A stretch of DNA of 63,549 nucleotides, from positions 1 through 63,549 of the forward strand of contig CAJWNY010000006.1 in the NCBI GenBank assembly GCA_913043815.1, given 5' to 3'. The translations under genes were made by a program, and so were the position numbers. The stretch is from an uncultured Gammaproteobacteria bacterium (GTDB lineage: Bacteria > Pseudomonadota > Gammaproteobacteria > Pseudomonadales > Azotimanducaceae). Under the pieces are notes generated by a model. It saw only the letters and a program-made list of their open reading frames with translations. It had not been told where the DNA came from and searched no databases. Shown here one piece after another: positions 1,662-57,898 of this stretch; position 1 is the first letter of the stretch; each line of letters starts with the position of its first letter.

Positions 1662-1817
1662 CAGTGTCTAACATCCAAATAAAACAAGGCGAATAGTGTA
1701 AGCCCATTTGCTCTAATTTGGCTTTATTCTTCTTCAAGGCAATGTATATTGCTCCGATCTTAACGCTGTCGATCATTTCCGCGGCGTTCAATGCTTCACG
1801 GTACTCATAGGCCCCAC

Positions 1818-3884
1818 ATGTCACGTAGAATCTTAGTTACCAGCGCCCTGCCAAACGCCAACGGCCCTATACATCTTGGGCACATGCTTGAGCACGTACA
1901 AACAGATATCTGGGTACGCTTCCAACGCATGCGCGGCAATCAAACCATCTATGTGTGCGCGGACGACACCCACGGCACAGCCACCATGATTAAGGCCGAC
2001 GAAGAGTCAGTGACGCCAGAATTACTGGTCGAAAATATACGTCAATTACATATAAAAGATTTTCAGGGCTTTTTAATCAGCCACGACAACTACTACTCTA
2101 CCCACAGTGACGAAAACCAGCATTTCTCGTCACTCATTTATAACCGCCTCCAAGAAAAAGGCCTGATTTTTACCAAAGAAGTTGAGCAGTTATACGATTC
2201 GGAAAAGGGCCTATTTTTAGCCGACCGTTTCGTTGTTGGCGGGTGCCCAAAGTGCAAGGTTGAAGGCCAATACGGTGACAACTGCGAGGCCTGCGGCGCC
2301 ACATATGACGCCACAGACCTTATCGATCCTAAGTCCATTTATTCAGGCGCAACGCCAGAGCTGCGCGCCTCAACCCACTACTTCTTTGACTTAGCCAGCT
2401 ACAGTCAATTCCTTAAAGATTGGACAAGAACGGACGCGGTACAACCTGAAATCGCCAATAAACTCAGCGAATGGTTGGACGATGGTCTGCGCCCTTGGGA
2501 TATCTCAAGAGATGCGCCCTACTTTGGCTTTACTATTCCCGGCACTACAGACAAATATTTTTACGTTTGGATGGATGCGCCCATTGGTTATATGGCCAGC
2601 TTCCAAAACTACTGCAGTGCGCAGAACGACCCAAACCTACAATTCGATGATTTCTGGAATGTAGGTTCCAGCGCAGAGGTACACCACTTTATCGGTAAAG
2701 ATATTGTTAACTTCCATGCGCTATTTTGGCCGGCGGTTTTAGACGGCGCAGGTTTCCGCACACCGACCAAAGTACATACGCATGGATTTGTCACTGTAGA
2801 CGGCACCAAAATGTCTAAGTCTCGGGGTACATTTATTCTCGCTGAAAAATACCTAGAACATTTGAACCCAGAATATCTGCGCTACTACTACGCAGCCAAA
2901 CTGAGCAATTCGGTAGATGACTTAGACATCAACCTAGAGGATTTTGTGCTCCGCGTGAACTCAGATTTGGTCGGTAAAGTCATCAATATCGCCAGCCGTA
3001 CAGCGGGCTTCTTGGTGAAAAACTTCGACGGTATAATGTCCGACGGAATTCACGACAGCGCGTTAATGGCGAAATTCACCGAGCAAGCAGAAAACATTGC
3101 GGCACTTTATGAACGAGGTGAATTCAGCAAGGCAGTGCGTGAAATCACTGGCTTGGCCGATTTAGCCAATCAATACATTGCTCAGCATGAACCTTGGGCT
3201 ATGGTAAAAAATCCGGAGCTGCGCGACAAAGTACAGTTGGTGTGTAGCCAAGCCATTAACATGTTCCGCTTCCTCGCTATTTTCCTCAAGCCGATTTTGC
3301 CGGTGACGGCAGAAAAGGCCGAGGAGTTTCTCGGCGTTGCGCCGCTCGCATGGTCTGACTGCGGGCATTTGCTCAGCGGCCATAAGATAAACAAATTCAA
3401 ACCTATGTTGCAGCGTATTGAAGGCAAAACGGTTGCTCATTTGGTAGACGCATCTGTGGAACCCGCTGAGCAATCTGCTGAAAACAAAACAGCAGAAAAG
3501 AACAAGCAACAAAAAACTTCTAAGCATGCCAAGCAAGAGAACGACACTTCAAACAGTGAATTTATCGATATAGACGACTTCACCAAAGTGAGCTTGAAGG
3601 TAGCGAGAATTATCTCCGCCGAAGCAGTAGAGGGCGCGGATAAATTACTTAAACTCACTTTAAATGTGGGCGACCATGAACGCTTCGTATTCTCAGGCAT
3701 CAAAGAAGCTTATAACCCAGAAGATTTAGTCGGTCGTTTAACCGTCGTGGTTGCCAACCTAGCACCAAGAAAAATGCGCTTTGGCGTTTCCGAAGGCATG
3801 GTCTTAGCAGCCGGTCCTGGCGGAGCTAACTTCTTCCTACTTGCACCTGACAGCGGCGCAGAACCCGGCATGGACGTTAAGTAA
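1818..3884 (+). CDS. metG: Methionyl-tRNA synthetase
   Basis: MetG charges tRNA-Met and initiator tRNA with methionine. Class I signature motifs are present: HLGH-type PIHLGHML near residue 25 and KMSKS in [10 protein letters not shown] near residue 335. A zinc knuckle with CPKC and CEAC lies near residues 145-160. After a lysine/glutamine-rich linker, the last 105 residues form an EMAP/Trbp111-type OB-fold tRNA-binding domain that also mediates dimerisation. I chose ATG 1818 ([17 protein letters not shown]) rather than the in-frame ATG 1791, because the family N terminus begins there; the ribosome-binding site is weak for both. This gives 688 residues, as expected for the long form. Confidence 0.96.
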
Positions 3885-4049: not shown

Positions 4050-4628
4050 GTGACTGAACTCGGCCTAATTTTAATCGGCGCACTGTTGGTGAACAATTTT
4101 GTCTTGGCTCAGTTCTTGGGCTTGTGTCCTTTTATGGGCATCACCAAAAGCTACGACACCGCCTTTGCAACAGGTCTAGCCACAACTTTTGTACTTGCTC
4201 TCGCAGCCGTCATCTCGCACCTCATTTACCACGGCATTCTGGTGCCCTTGGACCTAACCTACCTGAATATCATTTTGTTCATCGTGGTCATTGCCGGGCT
4301 GGTACAACTGATCCAAGTTTATCTGCACGCCACCTCCCCAGTATTGCACCAACTGCTGGGTATTTATCTGCCCCTCATCACCAGTAACTGCGCCGTATTA
4401 GGAGTGACCTTACTGGCCATCAATCAAAATTTAACGCTGCTGCAAACACTGACATTCGCCATTGGTGCTGCGGCGGGGTTTACGCTGGTAATGGTGTTAT
4501 TTGGTGCCCTGCGCGAGCAGTTACAACAAGCCAGCCTACCTGAAGCTTTTGCAGGTACGCCCATCGCTCTAATAAGTGCAGGACTCATGAGCCTGGCATT
4601 TATGGGCTTTCAGGGCATTGGTAGCTGA
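4050..4628 (+). CDS. rnfA: Rnf electron transport complex subunit A
   Basis: RnfA is an integral inner-membrane subunit of the Rnf/Rsx complex, which couples electron transfer to ion movement. The 192-residue protein is almost wholly hydrophobic, with about six membrane spans. It carries the family cysteine regions LGLCPFMGI (near residue 27) and ITSNCAVLG (near residue 110), which in characterised complexes hold an intramembrane Fe-S cluster together with RnfE. The start is GTG with a weak ribosome-binding site. Its stop overlaps the rnfB start (TGATG), indicating translational coupling. The operon is rnfABDGE followed by nth. Confidence 0.95.
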   Translation: MTELGLILIGALLVNNFVLAQFLGLCPFMGITKSYDTAFATGLATTFVLALAAVISHLIYHGILVPLDLTYLNIILFIVVIAGLVQLIQVYLHATSPVLHQLLGIYLPLITSNCAVLGVTLLAINQNLTLLQTLTFAIGAAAGFTLVMVLFGALREQLQQASLPEAFAGTPIALISAGLMSLAFMGFQGIGS

Positions 4629-5521
4629 TGTTTGGGCCACTGCTCATCATTTGCGCTTTGCTGGTATTTGCCGCTGGCGTGTTATGGATTCGCGGCAATG
4701 TGGCAAAAGACGAAGACAGTCTTGTTACAATCATTGACGCCCTGCTGCCGCAGACCCAGTGCGCCCAATGCAGTTATCCCGGTTGCCGCCCCTATGCACA
4801 GGCGGTTGCTGACGGTGCGCAAATAGATCTATGCCCGCCCGGCGGGCAAGAATTGGTTATTCAGTTAAGTGCTTTGATGGGGGTGGAAATACCGGCTCAA
4901 ACATTAGCAGAGCCGCTAACCTTGGTTGCTGTCATTGACGAAGCTGAATGTATTGGCTGTACCTTGTGCCTGCCGCCCTGTCCGGTGGATGCCATTATTG
5001 GCGCCCAAGGGTTTATGCACACTGTGCTGAGCAAAGACTGTACCGGCTGCGAACTGTGTATTTCACCCTGCCCAGTGGACTGCATCACCTTAGAACCCGT
5101 CGCCAACCCAACCACAGATTTGACTGACAAGCCATTCGTACTGAAAGGCAAAGGATGCATTAACTGCGGTCAATGCGCGCCAGCCTGCCCCAAAGATCTG
5201 TTACCCGACCAACTGCTAAAACTCGGTAACGGCGGGTTATGGGAACAGGCAGACGAACTGAACCTGCAAGACTGCATTGAATGCAGCTTATGCGACAGAG
5301 TGTGTCCCAGCGAAATCAATTTGGCGCAATTCTTTGCTCACGGCAAAGAGATAGAACAGCAGCGACTTGCAGAAAACGTCGAAAAGGAGCGTATTCAAGA
5401 TCGCTTTGAAAATCATCAGTCGCGGCTGCAAGCTAAACAAGAAGAGGGCGACCAGCGTCGCCAACAGCGCATCAACGAGCGCCTGCAAAGACCTCAGCAG
5501 AGTCGGAGCGGTGATCAGTGA
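4628..5521 (+). CDS. rnfB: RnfB fused to an RnfC-like C-terminal two-cluster ferredoxin domain
   Basis: Residues 1-155 are ordinary RnfB: a membrane anchor (about 2-22), the cluster motif Cys45, Cys48, Cys53, Cys69, and two 4Fe-4S ferredoxin motifs (Cys108/111/114/118 and Cys138/141/144/148). After a short linker the protein continues, where RnfB normally ends, with two more CxxCxxCxxxCP motifs (Cys177-187 and Cys216-226), separated by an LLPDQL...ADELNLQDCIEC stretch, and then a charged helical tail (about 235-290). From memory of E. coli RnfC, this block matches its C-terminal domain, including the tail, not RnfB. No separate rnfC lies in the operon. The protein could carry five clusters. 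The reading frame is clean and overlaps rnfA by one base and rnfD by four. Confidence 0.9.
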   Translation: MFGPLLIICALLVFAAGVLWIRGNVAKDEDSLVTIIDALLPQTQCAQCSYPGCRPYAQAVADGAQIDLCPPGGQELVIQLSALMGVEIPAQTLAEPLTLVAVIDEAECIGCTLCLPPCPVDAIIGAQGFMHTVLSKDCTGCELCISPCPVDCITLEPVANPTTDLTDKPFVLKGKGCINCGQCAPACPKDLLPDQLLKLGNGGLWEQADELNLQDCIECSLCDRVCPSEINLAQFFAHGKEIEQQRLAENVEKERIQDRFENHQSRLQAKQEEGDQRRQQRINERLQRPQQSRSGDQ

Positions 5522-6474
5522 AAGCACGCAAAATCATTAAGACACCCAATGTCATGGCATGGGTTCTCGTTGCACTGCTCCCCGGCTTAGCCGGCATGAC
5601 CTTCTATCTCGGTTTGGGCGTAGTGTGGAATTTATTCTGGTTATCTGCCTTTTGCTTGGCCACCGAGGTGCTCGTTGTCGCCCTTAAAAACGGCAGTCTT
5701 GCCACGGCGAATTTGCGCGCACCCCTACACAACAACCTTGGCGACGGCACAACCTTGCTGGCTGCCTGGCTCATTGCCATTTGCCTTCCGCCCTATGTTT
5801 CCATACAAATTTTAGCAGTCGCGGCGCTCGCCTCCATTGGCCTGGCAAAACACGCTTATGGCGGACTAGGTAACAATATCTTTAATCCAGCCATGGTGGG
5901 CTACGCGGTAATATTACTTTCTTTCCCCCAAGCATTAGCCGCATGGCCGGCACTGGAGGGCGTAGAAAATTTAGGAGCGGACACCCTCAGCGGTGCCACC
6001 TACCTTTCAGAATTTCGCTACCGCGATGCTATGACGGTTGATGAGTTTTTACTCAATAGCCCACAAGTTCTGCATCAACAAATTATCGCCGGACTGTTTT
6101 TACTCGGCGGCTTGGGCCTAATCTATCTCCGGATTATCAGCTGGCGAATTCCTCTGGCACTACTGATTACCGTTGGTCTGCTGGCCAGCGTCACATATGA
6201 CCAAGGCTCCACACAAAGTATGGGCTCTGCGTGGTTTCATTGGACTACTGGCGGCACTATAGCCGCGGCTTTTTTTGTTGCAACGGACCCAGTCACGCAC
6301 CCAAGCCGACACAGTCATCAGGTGATTTTTGCCGTCAGCATAGGCATCCTTCTATTTGTCATACGCACCCAAGGCAACCTACCCGACGGCATCGCTTTCG
6401 CCATTTTGCTCGCCAACTGCGCTACGCCACTACTCAACCGCATCCACAGACAGCGGGAGAGCCGGCATGTTTAA
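5518..6474 (+). CDS. rnfD: Rnf electron transport complex subunit D
   Basis: RnfD is a membrane flavoprotein subunit related to NqrB. The 318-residue sequence has repeated hydrophobic spans and the family block KHAYGGLGNNIFNPAMVGYA near residues 111-130. The covalent-FMN motif S-G-A-T occurs at residues 158-161, so Thr161 is the predicted flavin attachment residue. The start is GTG, overlapping the rnfB stop by four bases, which is the position rnfC would normally precede. It is somewhat shorter than E. coli RsxD (about 350). It is also overlapped at its 3' end by rnfG. Confidence 0.94.
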   Translation: MKARKIIKTPNVMAWVLVALLPGLAGMTFYLGLGVVWNLFWLSAFCLATEVLVVALKNGSLATANLRAPLHNNLGDGTTLLAAWLIAICLPPYVSIQILAVAALASIGLAKHAYGGLGNNIFNPAMVGYAVILLSFPQALAAWPALEGVENLGADTLSGATYLSEFRYRDAMTVDEFLLNSPQVLHQQIIAGLFLLGGLGLIYLRIISWRIPLALLITVGLLASVTYDQGSTQSMGSAWFHWTTGGTIAAAFFVATDPVTHPSRHSHQVIFAVSIGILLFVIRTQGNLPDGIAFAILLANCATPLLNRIHRQRESRHV

Positions 6475-7012
6475 AACGCTGACCGCGCTTACGTTGATCG
6501 GCGCTGCCTGTGGGCTTTTGTTATTTGCCATGAATGGTATAACCCGCGGTGATATTGAAAAAAATAGAACACAAAAAGCCCGAGCAATAATGGCTAAGCT
6601 ACTTAAACAACCGCTGCCTGATAAAATTTTTTGGGTGGACGATATTAGTGGAAGCTGTCAGTTGGGCTATTTCATTAAGCATGCAGAAAACGGCTACTCA
6701 GGACCGATCAATTTTTTTGCCCTGTACCACCCAAACTTACCTGATGATGAAGCACCCCGCGGAAAAACTACCAGGCAAGAACAGCTTAGTTTGCGAGTCA
6801 CGCGTCACCAAGAAACACCAGGCATTGGCGACTTCATTGATCACAAGCGCAACAGCTACCTGCCCGACCTCGACCAGCAATCAATTGCACAATGGCAAAA
6901 TTTGGACAATATTACTGGGGCAACCATTACCCAACGAGCGATTAAAAAGGCGGCGCTAAATATCCAAACCCGGATCCGCTACCACACCGAGAAATATCCC
7001 TGTGTCGAATAA
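6467..7012 (+). CDS. rnfG: Rnf electron transport complex subunit G (flavoprotein)
   Basis: RnfG is a mostly periplasmic flavoprotein subunit anchored by one N-terminal helix (about residues 5-23). It carries the conserved NGYSGPI segment, the HQETPGIGD block near residues 114-122 and the FMN-threonine motif T-G-A-T at residues 150-153, making Thr153 the predicted covalent flavin site. The start ATG at 6467 lies inside the end of rnfD (8-base overlap); it gives a normal membrane-anchored N terminus of a 181-residue protein, whereas a longer upstream reading would be rnfD in another frame. Coupled translation through the operon is likely. Confidence 0.93.
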   Translation: MFKTLTALTLIGAACGLLLFAMNGITRGDIEKNRTQKARAIMAKLLKQPLPDKIFWVDDISGSCQLGYFIKHAENGYSGPINFFALYHPNLPDDEAPRGKTTRQEQLSLRVTRHQETPGIGDFIDHKRNSYLPDLDQQSIAQWQNLDNITGATITQRAIKKAALNIQTRIRYHTEKYPCVE

Positions 7013-7700
7013 CGATTTCAGCCGTGGCGCAATAGAGAATAATCCGGCCTGGGCGCAACTTCTGGGTCTTTGCCCACTGCTGGCTGTAAGTAACAGTATT
7101 GCCAACGCGTTGGGGTTGGCCTTAGCCAGCGGATTTGTTTTGCTCGGCGCCAACACAAGCATCTCACTGCTGCGAAAAATTATTCCTGACGTGGCTCGCC
7201 TACCCTGCTTCGTGCTTATTATTGCCACTTTTACCACGGTAGCGGTGATGGTTTTAGAAGCTTACGCTTTCGATTTATATACCCGCATTGCGCTCTTCAT
7301 TCAAATAATTGTGACTAACTGCATGATTCTGGGCAGGGCCGAGGCCTTTGCTAGCAGACAACCTGTGGGCCGCGCAATAGTCGACGCGCTTGGCACGGCT
7401 ACGGGATTTGCCATTGCGCTCTTGGCTTTAGGCGCAGTAAGAGAGTTGCTGGGTAATGGCACTCTATTTAATGATATGGAGCTATTAGTAGGTAGCTTAG
7501 GCGCTGACTGGCAACTGACAATTTTCACCTCAGCGCCACTGCCTTTGGCAGTCTATCCTCCGGGCGCATTTCTCCTGGCCGGACTTTTATTCGCAGCGGT
7601 TAAAGCGCTAACAGCAACACAAAGTGGTCCCACTGCAAAAAAAGAAGTTGAGAAAGAAACTGGCACAGCCAATGATGCAGTGCGCAGAGCGAACCCGTAA
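7002..7700 (+). CDS. rnfE: Rnf electron transport complex subunit E
   Basis: RnfE is a polytopic inner-membrane partner and distant homologue of RnfA. The pseudosymmetric cysteine regions QLLGLCPLLAV (near residue 21) and VTNCMILGR (near residue 105) match those of RnfA and are thought to share an intramembrane cluster. About six hydrophobic spans are visible, followed by a short charged cytoplasmic tail. It starts with GTG and overlaps rnfG by 11 bases. At 232 residues it is close to the family length. The nth gene follows after 34 bases. Confidence 0.94.
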   Translation: MSNNDFSRGAIENNPAWAQLLGLCPLLAVSNSIANALGLALASGFVLLGANTSISLLRKIIPDVARLPCFVLIIATFTTVAVMVLEAYAFDLYTRIALFIQIIVTNCMILGRAEAFASRQPVGRAIVDALGTATGFAIALLALGAVRELLGNGTLFNDMELLVGSLGADWQLTIFTSAPLPLAVYPPGAFLLAGLLFAAVKALTATQSGPTAKKEVEKETGTANDAVRRANP

Positions 7701-7734: not shown

Positions 7735-8370
7735 ATGAACGGTGACAAACGCCATGAAATTTTCACCCGCCTACGCGCCGAAAATCCAAACCCCACCACC
7801 GAGCTTAATTATGACTCGCCCTTTGAATTGCTTATTGCGGTGTTGCTTTCCGCCCAAGCCACTGACGTTGGCGTCAACAAAGCCACAGGGCCACTGTTTG
7901 CTGCGGCCAATACGCCAGAGGCCATTTACAATTTGGGCGTAGACGGGCTGAAGGAATACGTTAAAACCATTGGCTTATTCAACACAAAGGCCTTCAACGC
8001 GCACAAAACCTGCAAAATTTTGATGGACGAGCACAACAGCCAGGTGCCCGAGGATAGAGAGGCATTGGAGGCACTACCCGGTGTTGGCCGCAAGACTGCG
8101 AACGTTGTACTCAATACCGCCTATGGTCACCCAACGATAGCCGTAGATACGCATATTTACCGCGTGTCCAACAGGACCAAAATAGCACCGGGGAAAAATG
8201 TCCGGGAGGTTGAAGACAAGCTGATAAAGTTTGTGCCTGCAGAGTTCAAGGTGGACGTGCACCACTGGCTGATTCTGCATGGACGCTACGTATGTGTGGC
8301 GAGAAAGCCCCGCTGCGGTAGCTGTAGTATTGAAGATTTATGCGAATTTAAAGACAAGGCCGACGACTAA
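7735..8370 (+). CDS. nth: Endonuclease III
   Basis: Nth is the bifunctional DNA glycosylase/AP lyase that removes oxidised pyrimidines in base-excision repair. The helix-hairpin-helix LPGVGRKTANVV carries the catalytic Lys120, and Asp138 lies in VDTHIYRVSNR, at the same numbers as in E. coli. The 4Fe-4S ligands Cys187, Cys194, Cys197 and Cys203 also fall at the E. coli positions. A good ribosome-binding site (AGAGGTGG) precedes the ATG. It closes the rnf operon, an arrangement shared with E. coli and Pseudomonas, and its 3' end lies in a terminator hairpin. Confidence 0.97.
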   Translation: MNGDKRHEIFTRLRAENPNPTTELNYDSPFELLIAVLLSAQATDVGVNKATGPLFAAANTPEAIYNLGVDGLKEYVKTIGLFNTKAFNAHKTCKILMDEHNSQVPEDREALEALPGVGRKTANVVLNTAYGHPTIAVDTHIYRVSNRTKIAPGKNVREVEDKLIKFVPAEFKVDVHHWLILHGRYVCVARKPRCGSCSIEDLCEFKDKADD

Positions 8371-57490: not shown

Positions 57491-57898
57491 ATGTTAAAAA
57501 TCGGTGAGCTTGCCGCACTTGCCAGCGTCTCAAGAGACACACTGCGTTTTTATGAGAAACAGGGGTTAATTACACCGGGTAAGCGAAATAATGTCGGTTA
57601 TCGTCTCTACTCCGAGACAGACGTGAATAGAGTCAGCTTTATTATTAGCGCCAAAGAAGTGGGTTTTACGCTCAACGAGATTCACCAATTATTAGAACTT
57701 GAAGTCACAAAAGACGAAAAGTCCTGTCAAGACATCAAACAGTTTGTGGACGCCAAGATCAGCATAGTCAACGAACGGCTAGAAGACATTAAACGCATCA
57801 AAAAATCTCTGCAAACACTCAGCAATGCATGCTGCGGCGGAGATGAACCAGCCACCCAATGCACTATTCTCGAAGCCTTAAGCGAGCAAACGAACTAG
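57491..57898 (+). CDS. ZntR-like MerR-family metal-responsive regulator
   Basis: A MerR-family activator. The N-terminal winged helix (MLKIGELAALASVSRDTLRFY) is followed by a dimerisation helix and a metal loop. Counting from ATG 57491 puts the metal-binding cysteines at 79, 114, 115 and 124, the same numbers as E. coli ZntR (Cys79, Cys114, Cys115, Cys124). The fifth ZntR ligand, His119, is replaced by Glu119 in CCGGDEPATQC. An ATG at 57476 gives five extra residues but would make the transcript leaderless. The gene is followed by the permease after ten bases. Confidence 0.9.
   Translation: MLKIGELAALASVSRDTLRFYEKQGLITPGKRNNVGYRLYSETDVNRVSFIISAKEVGFTLNEIHQLLELEVTKDEKSCQDIKQFVDAKISIVNERLEDIKRIKKSLQTLSNACCGGDEPATQCTILEALSEQTN

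Follow-up and report, generated by a model that had tools for sequence, protein, structure and literature searches.

Rnf has been described as a ferredoxin:NAD+ pump. We analyzed a stretch of 63,549 nucleotides from a draft genome of an uncultured gammaproteobacterium of the family Azotimanducaceae (assembly GCA_913043815.1, contig CAJWNY010000006.1, positions 1 to 63,549; this whole stretch is called the window below) and found that it carries an rnf operon in which the open reading frame (ORF) at 4628-5521 encodes RnfB and, continuing in the same frame, the dicluster ferredoxin domain and helix from the C-terminal end of RnfC. RnfA, RnfB, RnfD, RnfG and RnfE are encoded together in the window, and a full-length RnfC with its domain for binding flavin mononucleotide (FMN) and NADH is missing. 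We regard it as nearly certain that the gene composition is that of an Rnf in which only the C-terminal ferredoxin domain and helix of RnfC remain, attached to the end of RnfB. The wider reading, on which we are almost evenly poised, is that the fused clusters would let such an Rnf pump exchange electrons at RnfD with a carrier of single electrons and not with NAD(H).

The fused ORF combines RnfB with the C-terminal part of RnfC

The fused ORF encodes 297 amino acids. Its first part has the marks of RnfB: in an NCBIfam search TIGR01944 (RnfB) spanned residues 11-164 with 186.4 bits against a cut-off of 68.7, Pfam gave FeS (PF04060) and Fer4_21, and there is an N-terminal helix. The tail matched the RsxC model PRK05035, with residues 174-288 aligned to profile positions 366-480 of 556 (96.1 bits, E = 1.8e-27); this score lies below the whole-protein cut-off of 345, as expected when only part of a protein is matched. 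With the RnfC model TIGR01945, residues 175-241 aligned to positions 363-429 of 435. The top matches of the tail in the PDB were the RnfC chains 8ahx_C (E = 7.4e-12), 7zc6_C (3.8e-10) and 9eri_C (4.7e-10), which outranked other dicluster ferredoxins, and the phmmer alignment to 8ahx_C extended to about residue 269. A profile made from 38 fusions had the RnfB chain 8ahx_B as its best match in the PDB, and its last part reached the RnfC chain 8ahx_C. An earlier note on this DNA, made from the sequence by eye, had recognized the tail as the C-terminal part of RnfC and not RnfB; PRK05035, TIGR01945 and the PDB chains agree.

The same note held that the part of RnfC that handles FMN and NADH had been lost, and Pfam bears this out. 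Besides the C-terminal dicluster ferredoxin and helix, RnfC has an RnfC_N barrel-sandwich domain and a Complex1_51K FMN domain; Pfam found neither in the fused ORF, giving FeS and 4Fe-4S domains only, while a full-length RnfC used as a control (L009) gave both in the same scan. The features of the locus are as follows.

4628..5521, + strand: rnfB::rnfC' fusion, 297 amino acids (NCBIfam, Pfam)
4628..5098, + strand: RnfB part, residues 1-157, with an N-terminal hydrophobic helix and an FeS domain (C45/48/53/69)
within 4628..5098, + strand: dicluster ferredoxin of the RnfB part, C108/111/114/118 and C138/141/144/148
5099..5146, + strand: linker, residues 158-173, variable in length and sequence in the alignment of fusions
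5147..5326, + strand: RnfC-type dicluster ferredoxin domain, residues 174-233, C177/180/183/187 and C216/219/222/226
5327..5518, + strand: RnfC-type C-terminal charged helix, residues 234-297, PRK05035 match to residue 288
4050..4628, + strand: rnfA, GTG start, TIGR01943 245.8 bits (cut-off 229.3)
within 4050..4628, + strand: both [2Fe-2S] cysteines of RnfA present (FLGLCP, TSNCAV)
5518..6474, + strand: rnfD, GTG start, FMN motif SGAT, TIGR01946 245.5 bits (cut-off 207.05)
6467..7012, + strand: rnfG, divergent, FMN motif TGAT, TIGR01947 61.3 bits (below the cut-off of 102), FMN_bind PF04205
7002..7700, + strand: rnfE, GTG start, PRK12405 251.3 bits (cut-off 184), TIGR01948 at its cut-off of 213.4
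within 7002..7700, + strand: both [2Fe-2S] cysteines of RnfE present (LGLCP, VTNCM)
1791..3884, + strand: metG, upstream neighbor, ORF used as a BLAST reference
7735..8370, + strand: nth (endonuclease III), downstream neighbor, ORF used as a BLAST reference

The gene order on the + strand is metG - rnfA - [rnfB::rnfC'] - rnfD - rnfG - rnfE - nth, where the flanking genes are what we take to be metG and nth from the look of their sequences. The fusion overlaps rnfA by 1 base and rnfD by 4 bases. Gene order and family matches thus confirm that rnfC is missing between rnfB and rnfD in an operon of otherwise usual order. All of the core cofactor residues that we checked are present: RnfA and RnfE have both of their cysteines, and RnfD and RnfG have their FMN threonine. 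Rnf complexes with a separate RnfC and the usual gene order rnfABCDGE, such as Rnf1 of Azotobacter vinelandii (PDB 8ahx), resemble the window's system in their RnfA, RnfB, RnfD, RnfG and RnfE homologues, the order of these and the core cofactor residues. The difference is that the window's Rnf lacks RnfC_N and the FMN/NADH domain and has the RnfC ferredoxin domain and helix as part of RnfB.

The fusion recurs in the genus and beyond it

The genome is a draft of 2,851,459 bases in 133 contigs, rated 89.96% complete. A TIGR01945 search of all of it gave one match at E <= 1e-3, the fused ORF itself. We extended the search to 40 genomes of the genus, a marine group, made up of the window genome with 36 congeners and then three more. 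An RnfC-tail match was found in 27 of them, in every case inside a fused ORF, and not in the other 13, some of which are incomplete or have RnfD pieces at contig ends. No RnfC exceeded the family cut-off in any of the 40, the window genome (about 90% complete) included. RnfD was over its cut-off in 24 of the 40, all of which carry the fusion. RnfC was over its cut-off in 20 of 21 genomes sampled from other families of the order.

The same fused ORF is present in a metagenome-assembled genome (MAG) of the K189A clade (QXZU01000203.1, L031) and at L032, both 89% identical to that of the window. The earlier note had allowed for an assembly error near 5110-5160, and an artefact of assembly, binning or frameshift at the junction (5099-5146) would not be a strange thing in a draft of 133 contigs. 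The fused ORF is, however, open in 27 genus genomes and at least 15 outside ones; since it recurs in this way it is not an assembly error, and we give an artefact a negligible probability.

Outside the genus, a search of 390 genomes of the order gave at least eight matches with both halves in one ORF (G276, G386, G256 [same family], G291, G393, G340, G205 and G175). A search of 369 genomes of the class (E <= 1e-63) gave six (G515, G517, G637, G559, G534 and G650), the last listed match, G560, covering RnfB only, and one of 398 genomes of the phylum (E <= 1e-66) gave one (G1094). These genome sets overlap, and the counts are minima, as the strict limits may miss weaker fusions. No RnfC was over the cut-off in any of the 15 outside fusion genomes among the matches listed. 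Within family f1, the fusions fall in genus g1 and in g27/g29.

We examined gene order in 41 fused loci, 26 from the genus and 15 from outside it, leaving out the duplicates L057 and L085 and also L029. The full metG-rnfA-fusion-rnfD-rnfG-rnfE-nth order was found in 21 (15 genus, 6 outside), with the largest gap between rnfA and rnfE being 45 bases. Eleven loci stop at a contig end or at the end of the fetched sequence, two of them outside the genus, and the genus loci L082 and L084 lack only a nearby nth.

Both halves of the fusion are conserved

All 20 cluster cysteines and C152 were cysteine in each of 38 aligned fusions (24 genus, 14 outside). Among them are the two tail motifs at Cys177-187 and Cys216-226, whose positions the earlier note had given correctly. 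The G1094 fusion, which is outside this alignment, shows five cluster motifs by eye. We compared the window with L031, L032 and L076 and estimated ratios of nonsynonymous to synonymous substitution rates (dN/dS), which are rough because several dS values are near saturation. The RnfC-type ferredoxin domain gave 0.017, 0.042 and 0.030, and the RnfB part gave 0.057, 0.056 and 0.036. Two of the pairs gave estimates for the other regions, 0.79 and 0.19 in the linker and 0.114 and 0.059 in the C-terminal helix; the third was not estimable in either. As judged from these comparisons, the tail evolves under purifying selection.

The membrane core is likewise conserved in a concatenated alignment of 31 fused rows, seven further fused rows being too short for inclusion. 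The RnfD threonine is present in 31/31 rows, the first RnfA cysteine in 29/31 and the second in 30/31, and the RnfG threonine and both RnfE cysteines in all 26 rows with data. Two genomes depart from this: in G650 the first RnfA cysteine is histidine, and in G175 the RnfA slot holds its RnfE.

Origins and intermediate forms

The core tree was built from RnfA, the RnfB part, RnfD, RnfG and RnfE, with the tail excluded, and had 57 rows, of which 31 were fused. A single clade of fused rows was rejected by the approximately unbiased (AU) test (p = 1.2e-62), which formally presumes a group named before the tree, and the rejection held when the two rows on the longest terminal branches were removed (55 rows, 30 fused; AU p = 1.0e-69). 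The fused label needs a minimum of five changes on the core tree, four of them forced by well-supported branches, and such changes may mix gains, losses, regains and transfers. Since the fused rows do not form one clade, the fusion probably arose more than once.

Family f15 shows this most clearly, with three fused species nested among species with separate RnfB and RnfC. The joining fork has support of 100/100 on the core tree. Its value in the Shimodaira-Hasegawa-like approximate likelihood ratio test (SH-aLRT) is 96 on an RnfB tree of 71 rows and 92, under the starred level, on a tail tree of 72 rows, both trees having few columns and many unresolved forks. Compared with the RnfC tail of L020, an f15 species with a full-length RnfC, the f15 fusion tails show 69-73% identity.

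In genus g24 of the window's own family (G296, G369, G195 and G143), RnfB and RnfC are encoded separately and RnfC is short, its open frames running to 356-387 codons with the GMGGAG motif and ferredoxin domain retained. Pfam, applied to one of them (L103:4028-5098), found Complex1_51K and no RnfC_N. In form these short RnfC ORFs, at L103, L104, L105 and L106, are intermediate between a full RnfC and the fusion. In G419 (genus g31, a one-contig genome), RnfB and a short RnfC stand in one frame (L107:3901-5394), again with Complex1_51K present and RnfC_N absent, and G155 of family f15 has no Pfam match to RnfC_N and keeps Complex1_51K. The earlier note had supposed an in-frame deletion at the rnfB-rnfC junction. 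That is one possible route; intermediates within the same family suggest instead a stepwise route there, and a plausible path from these sequences is that RnfC_N was lost, then the genes were fused, and then the FMN domain was lost.

A proposed electron path

Structures of Rnf complexes show the pair of clusters in the RnfC ferredoxin domain as a bridge from the RnfD riboflavin to the RnfC FMN (PMC12174285, PMC11889175, PMC9588780). The RnfC-type tail of the fusion holds two predicted [4Fe-4S] clusters, out of five in the whole protein. The domain and helix have been kept next to an intact core, which suggests that this bridge is still used and would end at the protein surface. We propose that the fused domain would stay beside the RnfD riboflavin, as the RnfC domain does in the solved complexes, and that its outer cluster would be offered to a soluble one-electron carrier, ferredoxin or flavodoxin, at the place formerly taken by the FMN domain. 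Single electrons would pass between two carriers through a U-shaped path, RnfC' - RnfD - RnfG - RnfA/E - RnfB, coupled to Na+ or H+ and without hydride chemistry, and NADH oxidation would be left to Na+-NQR in these cells. Such a pump may be, for example, a flavodoxin- or ferredoxin-to-ferredoxin oxidoreductase that drives, or is driven by, a membrane ion gradient. That an ion pump of this kind, without hydride chemistry and from one-electron carrier to one-electron carrier, evolved repeatedly by RnfC-ferredoxin/RnfB fusion and loss of the NADH module is a tentative proposal, which we make with some doubt.

With the part of Rnf that handles NADH lost, electron exchange must use a different partner, as the earlier note had argued. 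This holds only if the membrane core works; the core cofactor residues are intact in the window, but the core is degraded or missing in the five outside genomes described below.

NAD(P)H might still be used if a separate flavoprotein, an FNR-type reductase unrelated to RnfC and NuoF, docked on the fused clusters. This would parallel the origin proposed for NQR, in which RnfB was lost, the cofactors of the RnfC homologue NqrA were lost and NqrF was recruited (PMC4014512), and several genus genomes have non-NqrF ORFs that match the NqrF model in part, at its reductase end. Against it, TIGR01945 detected no RnfC/NuoF-type FMN domain elsewhere in the window genome at E <= 1e-3, NuoF-like matches being present in some other genomes searched, and the 21 full-order loci have no extra gene between rnfA and rnfE, the gaps there being 45 bases at most. 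We consider a module supplied in trans improbable.

NqrF was over its cut-off in 29 of the 40 genus genomes. The window genome is one of them, and its NqrF, the kind of module for which the earlier note had proposed a search, lies on another contig (G000:C7). The rnf operon itself is not that of a Na+-NQR, as defined by an NqrF with a flavin adenine dinucleotide (FAD)/NADH domain in the operon: no such ORF occurs in 4050-7700. At G000:C7:10181-14407 (within L111), an NqrB-like match and NqrF lie close together, which suggests an nqr operon in the window genome.

Two further ideas were considered and set aside. SoxR is the known target of Rsx in Escherichia coli. As a general electron acceptor here it is unsupported: TIGR01950 was over its cut-off in nine of the 40 genus genomes, the window's not among them, and the weak TIGR01950 match at 57494-57835 of the window (53.6 bits, cut-off 116.9) is probably another MerR-type regulator. 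The second was the N-terminal arm of RnfD, which is reported to be buried in RnfC in the Rnf of Clostridium tetanomorphum. An [SA]PH motif in this arm, scored by eye, was seen in roughly every second row with a separate RnfC and was absent from all fused rows in a first comparison. The arm was dropped as a test of coevolution because it is confounded by phylogeny: in f15 the arms are alike in fused and separate species, genera g23 and g25 of f1 lack the motif despite a separate RnfC, and the G1094 fusion retains SPH.

Evidence against a pump, and other readings

Several points weigh against electron exchange with a one-electron carrier through an ion-pumping Rnf. Tethering the two ends of the path in one protein could short-circuit them. 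An AlphaFold2 model, made with an alignment of eight rows (the window, L031, L032 and the RnfB of L033, L034, L038, L041 and L043), was unusable for placing the fused domain, with a mean predicted local distance difference test (pLDDT) score of 51.4 and a predicted template modeling (pTM) score of 0.25; the helix at residues 3-39 appears also in this low-confidence model. The operon is complete in only six of the 15 outside loci, seven departing from it and two being cut by contig ends.

The departures themselves include five genomes (G515, G291, G1094, G175 and G650) in which the fusion is kept and the core is missing or degraded. In G515 the fusion, without an N-terminal membrane helix, stands alone between metG and nth (L073:4882-5799), and no match to RnfD, the core subunit searched for genome-wide, was found anywhere in this genome, which is rated 100% complete. 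G291 keeps rnfA and the fusion, followed by other ORFs, carboxylesterase-like by eye, and has no Rnf-type RnfD, only an NqrB-like match. In G1094 the cluster (L110:5534-8430) consists of a weak RnfA-like ORF in which the usual CP motif is missing, the fusion, a 166-amino-acid ORF with no NCBIfam match and an RnfD-like ORF without [ST]GAT; BLAST with the window proteins, which may miss a divergent RnfG, found no RnfG or RnfE match at the locus. G175 has no rnfG between rnfD and rnfE, and in its RnfE the first cysteine is serine and the second is off its aligned place, though a cysteine is nearby. Besides the RnfA substitution in G650, about 2.8 kb of unrelated ORFs separate its fusion from rnfD (L072:2000-4600), and no rnfG or rnfE match lies between rnfD and nth. 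Since the fusion is retained in these genomes despite a lost or degraded core, pumping is not required for keeping it, and the fused polyferredoxin would be useful by itself in some lineages.

These five genomes make a serious rival of the idea that the fusion acts as a wire, passing electrons between two soluble partners over its five predicted [4Fe-4S] clusters, with the membrane subunits as an anchor or relic and no need of pumping. Beyond G515 and the other four, the existence elsewhere of orphan-looking RnfB-like proteins (in Snodgrassella, Burkholderiales and other MAGs) favors it. These share the RnfB clusters with the fusion, and several have an RnfC-like C-terminal R...RL helix by eye; the seven that we read (L034, L037-L039 and L041-L043) differ in having no second dicluster ferredoxin and no membrane helix. 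In the genus, however, the core keeps its cofactor residues and its place in the operon, with the full order in 15 of 26 loci and the remainder stopping at a contig or fetched end or lacking only a nearby nth, and RnfD, wherever over its cut-off, always occurs together with the fusion. Moreover, the nearest RnfB and RnfC clusters are 25 Å or more than 30 Å apart in solved complexes. We judge this alternative unlikely, although worth keeping in view.

Decay is another matter: the complex may be losing its function, with the fusion as a passing stage. RnfG is divergent, with 61 bits against a cut-off of 102; besides the five genomes above, there are the two other departing loci, G256, with transposase-like ORFs beside the fusion, and G534, rnfD being displaced to another contig in both. 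The purifying selection on both halves in the genus, the cysteines invariant in 38/38 fusions and the presence of the fusion in 27 of 40 genus genomes speak against decay, and we hold it to be very improbable.

Relation to known systems and significance

We found no description of an RnfB::RnfC' fusion, or of an Rnf without its NADH module, in the titles, abstracts and passages searched, subscription papers and preprints being mostly out of reach; within these limits, the suggestion of the earlier note that no such complex had been described holds. The Rnf of Methanosarcina acetivorans is reported not to use NAD(P) (PMC4023990); unlike the fusion, it has retained RnfC as a protein of its own, with two cluster motifs, and operates together with a cytochrome c (PMC4023990). 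Na+-NQR is alike in having an Rnf-derived core, in the loss of the NqrA cofactors and in the entry of electrons elsewhere (PMC4014512, PMC12174285). The difference is that NqrA keeps its fold and loses the clusters and FMN, whereas the fusion loses the FMN domain and keeps the clusters together with RnfB.

Annotation pipelines may label such ORFs plain RnfB and so hide the missing dehydrogenase. The forms found make a series, from an RnfC without its N-terminal domain, through an RnfB::RnfC that has the FMN domain, to an RnfB::C' with the clusters only and, elsewhere, a B::C' without a pump, and this series makes it possible to study step by step how a respiratory complex loses a catalytic module. 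The fusion complex would also offer a naturally simplified Rnf in which to find out which step drives ion transport. If our reading of it as a pump is true, a recurrent and conserved Rnf without an NAD(H) module would show that the RnfB-A/E-G-D path is usable apart from NAD.

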